A DNA stretch of 35,017 nt from Deltaproteobacteria bacterium (GTDB lineage Bacteria > Desulfobacterota > Binatia > UTPRO1): NCBI GenBank assembly GCA_005879405.1, contig VBKW01000026.1, positions 1 to 35,017 of the forward strand. Direction: 5' to 3'. This document shows positions 5,664-10,209 of the stretch, one piece after another. Position numbers and translations under genes: made by a program. Within the stretch, counting starts at the first letter, position 1. Each line of letters starts with the position of its first letter. Under the pieces are notes generated by a model that made no database searches, had not been told where the DNA came from, and was given only the letters and a program-made list of their open reading frames with translations.

Positions 5664-6253
5664 CGCCTCGGGGCTTCCTCGAGGAACTCCTCGACGAACG
5701 CGCGCTGATCGTCCGCGGAGAGCGCGCCGCGCAGGCGCGACTCGGCGAGCTCGGTCGCGAGCGCGGCGACTTCCGCACGCACCTCCCCCAAGGCGCGGCG
5801 CCGCTCCTGCTCGGCGACGAGCGCGGCATCGGCGAGACGGCGTTTGCCGGTCTCCTCCGCTTGCGCGCGCAGGCGCTCGGCGTGGCGGGTCGCGGTGGTC
5901 ACGAGATCGTCGCAAATGCTCGCCCGCTCGGCGGCGACCGCTTGCGCGCGCGTGCGCGTCGACGCCATGAGCGCCTCGGCGTCGGCCAGCGCGGCGTCCG
6001 CTTGGGTGATCGTGGCAGTGACGTCCTCCGCGCGCCGACGCAAGTATTCGCGCAACGCCGGGATCACGTACTTCACCACGATGACGGCGAAGAGCGCGAA
6101 GTTGATCGCGGGAAAGACGAGCTCGGTGACGCTCGCCACGTGCGCGCCCTCGTGGTGCGCGTCGTGGGCCTCCTCCGCCGCGAGGAGCGGGCTCGTCTCG
6201 ACGAACGCGACCCCGGAGAGTGCTGCCGCGATTCGCGCCGGATGCCGGGTCAC
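5660..6253 (-). CDS. atpF: F1Fo ATP synthase b subunit
   Basis: This encodes a 197-residue b subunit of the peripheral stalk. Residues 1-26 are hydrophobic and signal-like (ARIAAALSGVAFVETSPLLAA). They are followed by an acidic, His-rich stretch (EEAHDAHHEGAH), then one membrane helix (LVFPAINFALFAVIVVKYVIPAL), then a long charged coiled coil to the C-terminus. The start is GTG and overlaps the atpF' stop as GTGA (6250-6253). With the preceding gene it forms a pair of different b-type subunits, an arrangement known from photosynthetic bacteria and several Deltaproteobacteria. The His-rich insertion before the membrane helix is unusual for the family. Confidence 0.9.
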   Translation of the reverse strand: MTRHPARIAAALSGVAFVETSPLLAAEEAHDAHHEGAHVASVTELVFPAINFALFAVIVVKYVIPALREYLRRRAEDVTATITQADAALADAEALMASTRTRAQAVAAERASICDDLVTTATRHAERLRAQAEETGKRRLADAALVAEQERRRALGEVRAEVAALATELAESRLRGALSADDQRAFVEEFLEEAPRR

Positions 6254-6681
6254 GCCGGCCTCCCCAGTACCTTCGTCACGACGGTCGTCGCGAGTCGATC
6301 CGCGTCGGCGCGAAGCGGGGCACGCGCCGCCGCCACTTGCGCGTTCGTCGTCGCGCGCTCGCGTTCGAGCAGCGCGAGCGCTTGGTCGCGATGGCGCGCC
6401 TGGATCGATTGCTCATCGGCCTCGGCGCGGCGGCGAATCTCCTCCGCCTGCCGTGCGCCCTCGTGGCGCCCTGCCGCGAGCTCGGCCTCGACGCTGGCGG
6501 CCAAGGTCGCCGCGTCGGCGCGGAGCGCGTCGGCGCGCGCGCGCGCGCCGTTCGTCCGCGCGGCGCGCATCGCCAACGCCCGCTGCACCGGGGTGAACAA
6601 CGCCCAGCGCATGAGCTGCCAGAACACGACGAAGCAGATGATCTGCGCGACGAAGGTCCAGTCCGGCGGCAGCTTGATCAT
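6250..6681 (-). CDS. atpF': F1Fo ATP synthase b' subunit
   Basis: This encodes a 143-residue second b-type stalk subunit. It starts MIKLPPDWTFVAQIICFVVFWQLMRWALFTPVQRAL, with one membrane helix at residues 8-30, followed by a continuous Ala/Arg/Glu-rich coiled coil. MIKLPPDWTF matches the usual opening of b'-type (atpX) proteins, so I chose the ATG at 6679-6681. An in-frame extension upstream is not protein-like. It is the first gene of the F1 operon, 130 bases after the bactofilin gene. A GAGG lies eleven bases before the ATG, so the ribosome binding site is weak. The genes for the a and c subunits are missing here and lie about 22 kb away, at 28.6-29.7 kb. Confidence 0.9.
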   Translation of the reverse strand: MIKLPPDWTFVAQIICFVVFWQLMRWALFTPVQRALAMRAARTNGARARADALRADAATLAASVEAELAAGRHEGARQAEEIRRRAEADEQSIQARHRDQALALLERERATTNAQVAAARAPLRADADRLATTVVTKVLGRPA

Positions 6682-6811
6682 CGGCCTGCACACCTCGCGT
6701 GATACACGAGATTCGAGTGTTTCGTCGGATGGCTCATCGTGTCTCTGCCGGGGAGCGGACGCCGATCGCCGGCGCACGCAGACGACGTCGGAGCAGCGCT
6801 TCCGAAGGGGG

Positions 6812-7366
6812 CTACTTCATGCCGTCGGAGAACGCGGCTTTCGGTGCGAGCGCTTCGCCGCGATCGTCCTTCGGGAACGGCGTGACTTTGCGGTCGCCCT
6901 TCGCCGCGTCCGCGCCGCCCATCGAGCAGTGACCCTCGAAGATCACGCCCTCCTGGATGATGAGGCACGGCGTCGTCACGTTGCCGAACAACTTCCCCGG
7001 CGCTTTGATCTCGACGCGTTTGCGCGCAGTGATGTCGCCGGTGACCTTGCCTTTGATGATGATCGTGCTGCCGATGATCTGCGCGTTGACGATCGCGCTT
7101 TCGCCGACGATCAGCGTGTCCTGCGCCGCCACCTCGCCTTCCACCGTCCCGTCGACCCGCACCGTGCCTTCGAACGTCAGCTTGCCGGCGACCTTACTTC
7201 CTTTTCCGAGATACGCGTTCACCTCGCCGCTAGCGGCGGGCAGCGTGGGTTCTGGCTCAGGCATATAAGCTTCCTTGCGAGTTGAGTCTTCGGTTACGAG
7301 ACGCGTGTCATCGCGATCCGACAGGCGATCGTGCCGATCCTTGTTCTCCTTCCCGAAGAGCGCCAT
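6812..7366 (-). CDS. Bactofilin (polymer-forming cytoskeletal protein)
   Basis: This encodes a 184-residue bactofilin, a protein that polymerises into filaments and scaffolds cell-shape or chromosome-segregation factors. After a charged 45-residue N-terminus (MALFGKENKDRHDRL) comes the beta-helical core with its regular hydrophobic/Gly pattern: YLGKGSKVAGKLTFEGTV, RVDGTVEGEV, IVGESAIVNAQI, IIIKGKVTGDI, and VEIKAPGKLFGNV. The Pro- and charge-rich C-terminus is typical. AAGGA lies about eight bases before the ATG. It follows parB on the same strand, and such linkage of bactofilin with the ParABS system is seen in Deltaproteobacteria and Myxococcota. A role in anchoring the origin or the Par proteins is inference from position. 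Confidence 0.9.
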   Translation of the reverse strand: MALFGKENKDRHDRLSDRDDTRLVTEDSTRKEAYMPEPEPTLPAASGEVNAYLGKGSKVAGKLTFEGTVRVDGTVEGEVAAQDTLIVGESAIVNAQIIGSTIIIKGKVTGDITARKRVEIKAPGKLFGNVTTPCLIIQEGVIFEGHCSMGGADAAKGDRKVTPFPKDDRGEALAPKAAFSDGMK

Positions 7367-7384
7367 GGAAGGTTTCCTTTCGAT

Positions 7385-7408
7385 TGCGTTATCCGTTGCG
7401 TTATCCGT
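7385..7408. repeat. 12-bp perfect tandem repeat upstream of bactofilin
   Basis: The unit TGCGTTATCCGT occurs twice in a row, followed by TG. It lies about 20-45 bases upstream of the bactofilin start, in the short spacer after parB. On the minus strand it reads as two copies of ACGGATAACGCA. This could be a regulator binding site or a chance duplication. Confidence 0.7.
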
Positions 7409-7450
7409 TGTTTGCGGGTGGGCCGAAACCGCGTCCTCCTACCATCGGCC

Positions 7451-8338
7451 TTACACGTTGTCAAAGTTCTGCTGGCCGCGCGAGAGCCTTTCTGCGAGGC
7501 CTTGGAGTTCCTCGTTCGAGTAGTACTCGATCTCGATCCGGCCACCACGGCCGCGCGGCACGATGCGCACGCGCGTGCCGAGCGCGGCGGCGAGATCGCG
7601 CTCGAGTGCGGCGCGGTGCGGGTCGCGCGGCGCGCGTCGCGCGTCGCCACCGCGGCGCGCGCTCGCGAGCTTCTCGGTATCGCGCACCGAGAGTTGTCGC
7701 GCGAGGATCTGGCGCGCGGCGCGGAGCTGTGCGTCGGCGGTGTCGAGCGAGAGCAGCACGCGCGCATGCCCGGCAGTGAGGCGTCCGCGCGCCAGCTCGC
7801 GCTTGATCGGCTCGGGAAGCCGTAGCAGCCTGAGCGCGTTCGCGATCGCCGGGCGGCTCTTGCCGACGCGCGCGGCGATCTCTTCTTGCGTGTGACCGAA
7901 GTCGTCGAGCAAGCGCTGGTATGCCGCCGCTTCCTCGAGCGGCGAGAGGTCGTCGCGCTGGATGTTCTCGATGAGCGCGAGTTCGAGGCTCTCGCGATCG
8001 GAGACCTCGCGGACGACGATCGGCACCTCGCGGAGTCCGGCGAGACGCGCCGCGCGGAGTCGCCGCTCACCGGCGACGAGCTCGTAGCCGCCGTCGCCGT
8101 CGGGGCGGACGAGCAGCGGCTGCAGAATCCCCTGGGCGCGGATCGAAGCGGCGAGCTCGTTCAGCGCCGCCTCGTCGAAGTCGGCGCGCGGTTGGCGCGG
8201 GTTCGGCCGGATGCGATCGATCGCCGCTTGGCGCTCGGGCTCGACGCCGACGGTCGTCGGCATCTCGCCGAGCATCGGCTTTGGAGCTCCGGGAATGAGC
8301 GCGTCGAGTCCGCGCCCCAAGGCCTTCCGCATGGTCAT
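7451..8338 (-). CDS. parB: Chromosome-partitioning protein ParB
   Basis: This encodes a 295-residue ParB, the CTP-dependent DNA clamp that loads at parS and spreads along the origin region. It starts MTMRKALGRGLDALIPG, the usual opening that contacts ParA. The N-terminal domain holds the CTP-binding signature GERRLRAAR and the ENIQRDDLSPLEEA segment. A helix-turn-helix follows (HTQEEIAARVGKSRPAIANALRLLRLP), then a C-terminal dimerisation domain. The ATG overlaps the parA stop as ATGA (8335-8338). Two perfect 16-bp parS sites lie within 1.3 kb, so a working ParABS system is very likely. An Arg-rich linker around residue 230 separates the DNA-binding and dimerisation parts. Confidence 0.97.
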   Translation of the reverse strand: MTMRKALGRGLDALIPGAPKPMLGEMPTTVGVEPERQAAIDRIRPNPRQPRADFDEAALNELAASIRAQGILQPLLVRPDGDGGYELVAGERRLRAARLAGLREVPIVVREVSDRESLELALIENIQRDDLSPLEEAAAYQRLLDDFGHTQEEIAARVGKSRPAIANALRLLRLPEPIKRELARGRLTAGHARVLLSLDTADAQLRAARQILARQLSVRDTEKLASARRGGDARRAPRDPHRAALERDLAAALGTRVRIVPRGRGGRIEIEYYSNEELQGLAERLSRGQQNFDNV

Positions 8339-9105
8339 CTCCTAACGACGTTTTGAATCAGCTCATTCGCGACCGCGGCATACGCCCTCGCGCCACGCGA
8401 TCGGGCGTCGTAGAGCATCGCCGGCATGCCATAGCTCGGCGACTCGCTGAGCCGTACATTGCGCGGAACGACGGACTCGAACACTTGATTTGGGAAATGC
8501 TGCCGAACCTCGTTGACGACCTGATGCGCGAGCCCGTTACGTGTATCAAACATCGTTAGCAAAAGCCCCTGAATGTCCAGCTTGGGATTCAGACTCTGGC
8601 GGATGAAGCCGATCGTCTCCAGCAGCGCGCTCAGACCCTCGAGCGCGTAGTACTCGCATTGCAAGGGAATCAAGACGGCGTCGGCGGCGGTGAGCGCGTT
8701 GACCGTCAAGAGCCCGAGAGACGGCGGACAGTCGACGATCACGAACTCGTACTGGCGGCGCACTTGTGTGATCGCGTCGTCCAGGCGGTACTCACGTCGC
8801 GGCAGCGGGACGAGCTCGATCTCGGCGCCGATCAGGTCGCGACTCGCCGGCAGCAGCGAGAGGTGGTCGATCTGGGTTGGACGGATGACGTCCTCGGCCG
8901 GTCGTGCCCCGATGAGCACGTGGTAGACCGAGGCTTCGAGCTCCTGAGGATGAACGCCGAGGCCGCTCGTGGCGCTCGCCTGAGGGTCGAAGTCGACGAG
9001 CAGCGCCGAGCAGCCGGCGAGCGCCAGCCCGGCGCTGAGATTCACCGCCGTGGTGGTCTTTCCGACGCCGCCTTTTTGATTTGCGACCGCGAGAACCCGT
9101 CCCAC
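8335..9105 (-). CDS. parA: Chromosome-partitioning ATPase ParA
   Basis: This encodes a ParA/Soj ATPase that binds DNA non-specifically when ATP-bound and drives origin segregation with ParB. The deviant Walker A motif KGGVGKTT lies near residue 11. It also has FDPQASAT (Walker A'), VIVDCPPSLGLL (Walker B), and a C-terminus with RNVRLSESPSYGMP. I chose the GTG at 9103-9105. It lies five bases after GGAGG and gives MGRVLAVANQKGG, the standard ParA opening. A second in-frame GTG two codons upstream overlaps the ribosome binding site. The 256-residue length is normal. A parS site sits about 60 bases upstream, so ParB bound there could repress this operon. Confidence 0.96.
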   Translation of the reverse strand: MGRVLAVANQKGGVGKTTTAVNLSAGLALAGCSALLVDFDPQASATSGLGVHPQELEASVYHVLIGARPAEDVIRPTQIDHLSLLPASRDLIGAEIELVPLPRREYRLDDAITQVRRQYEFVIVDCPPSLGLLTVNALTAADAVLIPLQCEYYALEGLSALLETIGFIRQSLNPKLDIQGLLLTMFDTRNGLAHQVVNEVRQHFPNQVFESVVPRNVRLSESPSYGMPAMLYDARSRGARAYAAVANELIQNVVRR

Positions 9106-9165
9106 AAGCACCTCCGCACCAGACGGTCATGCGTCTCATAACAGCGGCGGGGCGGAGGCGCAATC

Positions 9166-9181
9166 TGTTTCACGTGAAACA
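9166..9181. promoter_or_regulatory. parS site 1 (perfect consensus)
   Basis: The palindrome TGTTTCACGTGAAACA matches the conserved bacterial parS consensus at all 16 positions. It lies about 60 bases upstream of the parA start, where ParB binding would both load the partition complex and affect parA transcription. Confidence 0.97.
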
Positions 9182-9527
9182 TGTGACGTTCGGGCCGGAG
9201 GCCGTGGAGGGCGGCGCCTTGCGCGGGGCGCGGGTGTCGTCGGTCTGCACCCGACGTGCGCAAGAGGGCAAGTTTGCGCACCACGGGTGCAGACCGACGA
9301 CGACCGCGCCCCGCTCGCGACGTCGACGGTCACCACGGCAGCCCGCTCGCGGCGGCACGCGTTCCGCGCGCTACGCCAGTCCGCGTCTTCGCCTCGCTGA
9401 CGCTGGCGGTCGACTTGAGACCGGGCGAGGTGACCGAGCGCGTGGATGCCCGAGCGCGAGGCGTGTGAGGAATGGGTGCGACGCGGATGACTAGACGCGT
9501 GGCAAATGGGTCTGGGGAAGCGGATTG
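9182..9527. other. Non-coding spacer between parA and rsmG, flanked by parS sites
   Basis: These 346 bases contain no convincing gene on either strand. The short open frames in it are Arg/Pro-rich and mirror each other because of a large inverted repeat (9223-9314). A perfect parS bounds the spacer on each side. The part from 9315 to 9527 shows no further structure that I can recognise. Confidence 0.7.
9223..9314. repeat. 92-bp near-perfect inverted repeat between the two parS sites
   Basis: The arms 9223-9263 and 9274-9314 are reverse complements with 37 of 41 positions paired; one of the four mismatches is a G-T pair. The loop is only ten bases (9264-9273). The core arm contains GTCGTCGGTCTGCACCCG. 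No T-run follows, so it is not a standard intrinsic terminator. It may be a palindromic repeat or MITE-like element, or a structured site linked to the partition region. The inverted repeat is a direct observation; any function is unknown. Confidence 0.9.
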
Positions 9528-9543
9528 TGTTTCACGTGAAACA
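9528..9543. promoter_or_regulatory. parS site 2 (perfect), overlapping the rsmG stop codon
   Basis: This second exact TGTTTCACGTGAAACA covers the last codons of rsmG: the gene ends with codons for Cys-Phe-Thr and a TGA, all inside the palindrome. The two parS sites lie 362 bases apart, start to start. Confidence 0.97.
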
Positions 9544-10209
9544 TTCGGTGGAGGTTGACGGCTTTCTGTAGACGTCGAGACGGCGGTGGATGCGGGGTGA
9601 TGGGTGGTACTCCGGGGATTGTTCTAGGACGAATGGAGGTGCGGGGGGGCGGGCGTGGGTCAGGCTCCGGAGGCAGAAGAGGAGGCCGCCCTCGCGGATC
9701 CATGGGGCGGCGAAGCGGAGCATGCGATCGTCGGACCAGACGGCTCGGGAGACGGCGACGTCGACCGGCTCGACCTCGACATGGGCGTACTCTTCGACTC
9801 GAACCGGCACCACCTGGACGTGCGGCAGGTCGAGCTCGCGCTTCACCTCACGCAGGAAGCTCGCGCGGCGACGACGAGGCTCGACGAGCAGGGTCCGCCG
9901 CTCGGGAGCGACGATCGCGAGCGGCAGGCCGGGCAGTCCGGCACCGCTGCCGAGGTCCGCGACGGCGCTTGCCGCGGCGCATGGCCAGGCGCAGACGAGC
10001 GCGTCCAGTAGGTGGCGCTCGATCAGCTCGTCGGCGCTGCGGCACGAGATCAGGTTCGCCGAGCTGCGCCAGCGGTCGAGGAGGTCGACGTAGCGTACGA
10101 GTCGGGAGAGAGCCGTCCGGTCGAGCTCGACGCTCAGCTCGGCCGCGCCGGCCCGCAATCGCTCGCGCTCAGCCGCGCCGAGTCTCAGCGACGGCCGCGC
10201 GGTGCTCAC
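9532..10209 (-). CDS. rsmG: 16S rRNA (guanine-N7) methyltransferase RsmG
   Basis: This encodes a 225-residue SAM-dependent methyltransferase, the homologue of the enzyme that makes m7G527 in 16S rRNA. The SAM-binding motif [17 protein letters not shown] is intact. The preceding [19 protein letters not shown] resembles the usual NLT..-..RH..DSL region, and the VSRAVW segment matches the usual SRA motif. The Pro-rich C-terminus ends in RRLDVYRKP plus a tail encoded by parS site 2. The GTG start (10207-10209) lies 41 bases inside the end of mnmG. That overlap is longer than others in this cluster, so the true start could be slightly further in. The order mnmG-rsmG-parA-parB is the classic gid/par arrangement. 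Confidence 0.9.

Follow-up and report, generated by a model that had tools for sequence, protein, structure and literature searches.

A hairpin between two parS sites as one copy of a dispersed repeat with a fixed tip and private stems

The long hairpin lying between the two parS sites of the window (the whole stretch of 35,017 nucleotides analysed here, belonging to genome G000) is one copy of a lineage-specific, high-copy and non-coding hairpin repeat, probably of REP/MITE-like kind, the stems of which would be homogenised, and in part extended, by templated copying. What the copies have in common is the hairpin tip alone, of about 46 bp, and G001, a genome of the same genus, holds an analogous family.

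The hairpin and the partition locus

The initial annotation had described a non-coding inverted repeat without a T-run between two parS sites, and this description was accurate. The hairpin is real: of the 41 positions of arms 9223-9263 and 9274-9314, 37 pair, with a 10-nt loop between them, each parS site is perfect, no T-run is present, and the open reading frames crossing the hairpin (9042-9284 on the minus strand, 9081-9494 on the plus strand) look spurious. The features of the region are the following.

9264 to 9273, plus strand: hairpin loop, GAGGGCAAGT (family consensus GAGGGTARGT)
9250 to 9287, plus strand: conserved tip, CCCGAC GTGCGCAA-loop-TTGCGCAC CACGGG, with 42 own-genome matches at up to 3 mismatches
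9223 to 9263, plus strand: left arm, 37 of 41 positions paired, the part outside the tip being copy-specific by between-copy comparison
9274 to 9314, plus strand: right arm, copy-specific outside the tip
9212 to 9325, no strand assigned: full extent of the symmetry, 52-nt arms at 83%
9166 to 9181, no strand assigned: parS 1 (context, outside the repeat), perfect 14-mer at 9167-9180
9528 to 9543, no strand assigned: parS 2 (context), perfect 14-mer at 9529-9542
8335 to 9111, minus strand: parA (context), from its ORF and the conserved locus
7451 to 8338, minus strand: parB (context), from its ORF and ParB comparison
9532 to 10209, minus strand: rsmG (context), from its ORF and the conserved locus

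The symmetry continues more weakly to 9212-9263/9274-9325, over 52 nt at 83%. This is the strongest close inverted repeat of the whole window. Its fold energy is -59.5 kcal/mol (z -9.6) for DNA and -89 (z -10) for RNA, and 0 of 200 shuffles fold as well; a cruciform is in principle possible. No Rfam family matched at the gathering score, and at a relaxed threshold only microRNA-precursor models and one sRNA appeared, all scoring well under their cut-offs, which would be the case for any long hairpin.

The genes parB, parA and rsmG all lie on the minus strand, with both parS sites and the hairpin in the parA-rsmG spacer. The same spacer of G001 has one parS and no hairpin, and other relatives carry 2-3 parS there. 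By its position next to rsmG, parS 2 is the likely counterpart of the single G001 site, a call made by eye where global alignment instead pairs parS 1. About 350 bp with the hairpin, at 9182-9527, look extra in comparison with G001, as does a second parS; they are flanked by two identical 16-bp parS palindromes, and the second parS may have arrived together with this insertion. By ParB, the closest relative with a name is a groundwater 'Deltaproteobacteria' MAG (84%), and the next ones include Candidatus Binatia MAGs. Next after parB on the minus strand come genes that look, from their translations only, bactofilin-like and ATP synthase b-like (window 6250-8338).

The annotation had also suggested an effect on ParB spreading, to be doubted should the hairpin be absent from close relatives at this locus and scattered elsewhere, and this is what was found. 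The location between two parS sites would suit a partition element acting together with parS or on the spreading of ParB, but about 45 further copies are found at unrelated loci, the hairpin is missing from the G001 spacer although parS is kept there, and no such family was seen in other relatives. An accessory site of ParABS, being neither conserved at the par locus nor confined to it, was thus rejected, and a partition function is very improbable. The nearness of the hairpin to parAB and parS is incidental, which corrects the first reading of this DNA.

A fixed tip with private stems

A search of the own genome with the hairpin stretch matched strongly at dozens of places, on different contigs. 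With up to 3 mismatches, the tip CCCGACGTGCGCAAGAGGGTARGTTTGCGCACCACGGG is present 42 times (reversed control, 0), and a shorter form of it 44 times; two further hairpins with a diverged tip raise the total to about 46 copies spread over many contigs, as counted by pattern and read in stretches, so that the dispersed palindromic element contemplated in the annotation was borne out. Nearly all of them are found in spacers between genes. The two diverged hairpins (L226:8195-8285 and L223:17767-17856, on contigs C112 and C69) keep the stem framework of the family, with the sense-strand loops GATAAGGAGCATT and GAAAAGGTTCATGT. Beyond this genome, the tip was found 0 times in five genomes of the family, G001 included, and in its exact form 0 times in the GTDB (85k-genome) and viral collections. 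Plasmid and phage collections gave none either, and no plasmid, phage or viral source was found in these collections at the sensitivities used, although near-identical genomes may be missing from all of them.

In the 44 copies read, the tip comprises an 8-bp stem (GTGCGCAA/TTGCGCAC, with minor variants), an AC/CA step and CGGGTGC; the step is unpaired in nearly all G000 copies and paired in one. Outside the tip, the stems become private to each copy. Between 9 and 30 nt from the tip, the two arms of one copy are 86-88% identical, in comparison with 41-45% between copies and 33% expected between copies from composition, while tip-proximal bases are equal in both comparisons. The symmetry extends over a median of about 38-60 nt, depending on which of two measures is used, and up to about 175; one copy (L103-) has lost an arm. 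Four copies form a subfamily with a shared stem and visible ends (GTAGGGCGGCGGG...CCCGCGGTCCGTCG), two of them lying within short site-specific inverted repeats. Substitutions among these four paralogous copies occur in both arms of a copy at once, with 16 symmetric vs 14 one-sided pairwise differences. Such paired changes within copies indicate that the arms of a copy evolve in concert.

The analogous family of G001 (loci L261-L275) has at least 13 folding copies with the tip loop GAAGAGAAGTCTA. The exact loop occurs 15 times in G001 and once in a class relative, and 0 times in G000 and the remaining members of the family. For the 13 readable hairpins, arm identity is 98.5% within a copy and 50% between copies, with 41% expected from composition. 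A census of 382 kb of G001 gave five long perfect hairpins, all with GAAGAGAAGTCTA or a near variant. Of the long hairpins of G000, 13 of 15 carry the tip and the other two its diverged form, in a 374-kb sample partly picked from contigs known to hold copies, which biases their density upward. Tips are borne by 15/15 hairpins scoring at least 18 in G000 and 5/6 in G001, and by nearly all long hairpins in about 750 kb of both genomes. Other family members and six other members of the class (about 1 Mb sampled) showed only scattered unrelated palindromes. Taken as a pair, the two families show a design of fixed tip and private stem common to two species whose tips differ. A different tandem palindromic unit (CACCCGGGATTCACTCCCGGGTGCGACGCCCATCGCGAG...) was seen about twice in one spacer of G001 (L075, contig C80), near the orthologue of L010.

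Both genomes are draft assemblies, in which palindromes are prone to error. An assembly artefact is disfavoured by the many contigs involved, by mismatches within arms, by a tip that is both asymmetric and conserved, and by the occurrence of such hairpins in a second, independent genome; least safe in this respect is the perfect outer portion of L106, the longest copy.

Placement at gene ends and origin of the stems

Copies in G000 favour the 37-100 nt that follow stop codons, with one fixed side toward the gene. In 19 of 40 copies, the left side of the tip looks onto a gene 3' end no more than 100 nt away, where 3.5 such copies would be expected (p about 2e-10); the right side does so in 5, with 3.8 expected. 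This bias of 19 vs 5 (p=0.007) was obtained with a cut-off chosen post hoc, the data having already been seen, and with gene ends from a crude, simple composition-based caller. The G001 family shows the same tendency (6 vs 2). The window copy is not of this type, since parA starts 144 nt to its left and rsmG ends 250 nt to its right.

This placement would be expected of an RNA element at gene 3' ends, the purine-rich tip loop of which would be read by a protein or nuclease while the stem merely pairs, leading to termination, processing or mRNA stabilisation. In its favour, and in addition to the bias of both families, most nearby pairs of copies are arranged head to head, some of them between convergent genes, the sense strand of the loop is rich in purines in both families, whose loops align as AAGAG..AAGTYT, and the skew of the stems places G in the 5' arm. 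Outward, stem bases are 0.49 C and 0.28 G, with C exceeding G in 37/40 copies, a skew absent from flanks and 3' UTRs. Against it stand the lack of a T-run, stems that reach 60-170 bp and even enter coding sequence, and the many copies, that of the window included, outside a 3'-end position. Moreover, G-U-compatible mismatches of the stems show no strand preference (12 bottom and 10 top, one shared position set aside), so that selection for RNA pairing on one strand was rejected and DNA-level correction explains the stems at least as well as RNA selection. The RNA reading as a whole is accordingly possible but doubtful. An intrinsic terminator was also discarded: the position is often right, but there is no T-run at the window copy and none is evident in the printed copies. 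A role as the source of a structured RNA, also raised in the annotation, is possible for the family, given its one-orientation placement at gene 3' ends. It is less likely for the window copy, which lies upstream of parA, at 144 nt, and is reversed relative to the rsmG stop, 250 nt away.

The likeliest process, and a rather probable one, appears to be homogenisation of the stems by template switching, together with their partial extension. One arm would serve as template for the other during DNA synthesis and so keep the stem symmetrical (quasipalindrome correction); in some copies, flanking DNA, the end of the adjacent gene included, would also have been copied in inverted form. The tip would be mobile, and any effect on the host may be mild or exerted at mRNA 3' ends. 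Template switching is known to homogenise and lengthen the arms of inverted repeats (PMC8604942). In this regard, 5 of 18 gene-end copies have on their far side an inverted copy of the adjacent coding end that outranks all 82 controls, a small null. The strongest is L047, with 23 bp perfect, where G001 has the gene end without the inverted copy; in L062, a decayed inverted copy reaches into fliP-like coding sequence. Such cases suggest that local DNA has been copied, in inverted form, around the tip. In L106, with arms of about 175 bp, the two arms resemble each other more closely over their outer 68 bp than further in, a pattern that stepwise extension would leave; the arms are unique in the genome, so they do not represent a repeat from elsewhere. 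The L106 hairpin (G000:C52:3200-6200, near 1505) lies at the position of the C-terminal part of a SpoVR-like gene of G001, and its own SpoVR-like gene, identified by eye from the translation, seems truncated or rewritten there.

Other observations limit the template-switch reading. The C/G skew of the inner stem, absent from the surroundings, indicates that this part is not simply copied flank, and arms as plain flank copies were rejected by this base-composition test. The orientation bias of 19 left and 5 right counts against DNA correction alone, which does not predict it. A further point against is that template switching can also invert the spacer, whereas the tip mostly keeps one orientation. 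Most orthologous spacers of G001 are too diverged for base-by-base alignment.

The tip could alternatively have been inserted at the apex of long palindromes already present, for instance terminators. At two of about 22 comparable G000 sites (L060 and L062), G001 has a hairpin of its own type at the orthologous gene edge, maybe through shared hotspots, and the two subfamily copies nested in site-specific inverted repeats would also fit. However, tip-less long hairpins are nearly absent, which weakened the proposal, arms in G000 generally pair from the tip outward with no leftover loop, and no long palindrome is found in orthologous spacers of G001 like those of L017 and L022, making insertion at an apex unlikely. 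Co-location at L060 and L062 may reflect hotspots or tip replacement. A dispersed element could be tentatively envisaged in which only the tip is inherited and the stem is rebuilt at each site, primed by fold-back of the tip that copies local DNA; as the tips of related species differ, tips would be replaced while the architecture and some sites persist.

Relation to known repeats

REPs are extragenic, often arranged in inverted pairs and downstream of genes (PMC3733652, PMC2817692), and the G000 repeat resembles REPs and BIMEs in being a short extragenic palindrome (about 46 copies), species-specific, often in inverted pairs, located downstream of genes and preserved by complementary changes. 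These habits (PMC3733652) would support a classical REP/RAYT repeat. Nevertheless, 2 of the 42 left arm ends have the GTAG tag, with 0.9 expected, and CGTC appears in 8 cases (5.7 expected), neither being enriched, although the four-copy subfamily does start with GTAG. The Y1/RAYT transposase (PF01797) has no match in G000, which is 96% complete, so that a gene could be missed, and is present in four relatives. Stems are only 41-45% alike between copies and much longer than those of REPs, the apex rather than the whole palindrome being conserved. With tag, RAYT and shared palindrome all failing, REP membership was rejected, and a classical REP/RAYT repeat is quite unlikely.

Copies of MITEs, ERIC and NEMIS share most of their sequence, stem ends included. 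Here the tip alone is common and, with the exception of the four-copy subfamily, no terminal inverted repeats common to copies were found; in that subfamily, the sole one with definable ends, no consistent target-site duplication was seen. The likeness to these stem-loop families (PMC2267715) lies in non-coding, dispersed sequences that fold as hairpins. Quasipalindrome correction by template switching (PMC8604942, PMC7202029) similarly involves arms that are homogenised and can lengthen, but it is known as a mutation process and not as the basis of dispersed repeat families built on a fixed tip. A possible further parallel is offered by mitochondrial double-hairpin elements and GC clusters (PMC4478555), which are mobile GC-rich hairpins of spacers but organellar and different in structure. 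The G000 repeat works like a dispersed hairpin of REP or MITE type, yet it is not filed as a member of either.

A search of the open-access literature found no description of bacterial hairpin families with conserved tip and variable stem. As a rule, a dispersed palindrome is defined by the sequence that its copies share and is linked to a transposase, whereas here two species of one genus keep the tip and vary the stem, with pairing near-perfect inside each copy. These dozens of independent palindromes offer a natural set for measuring the homogenisation of arms, the growth of palindromes into genes and the orientation-specific placement after stop codons.
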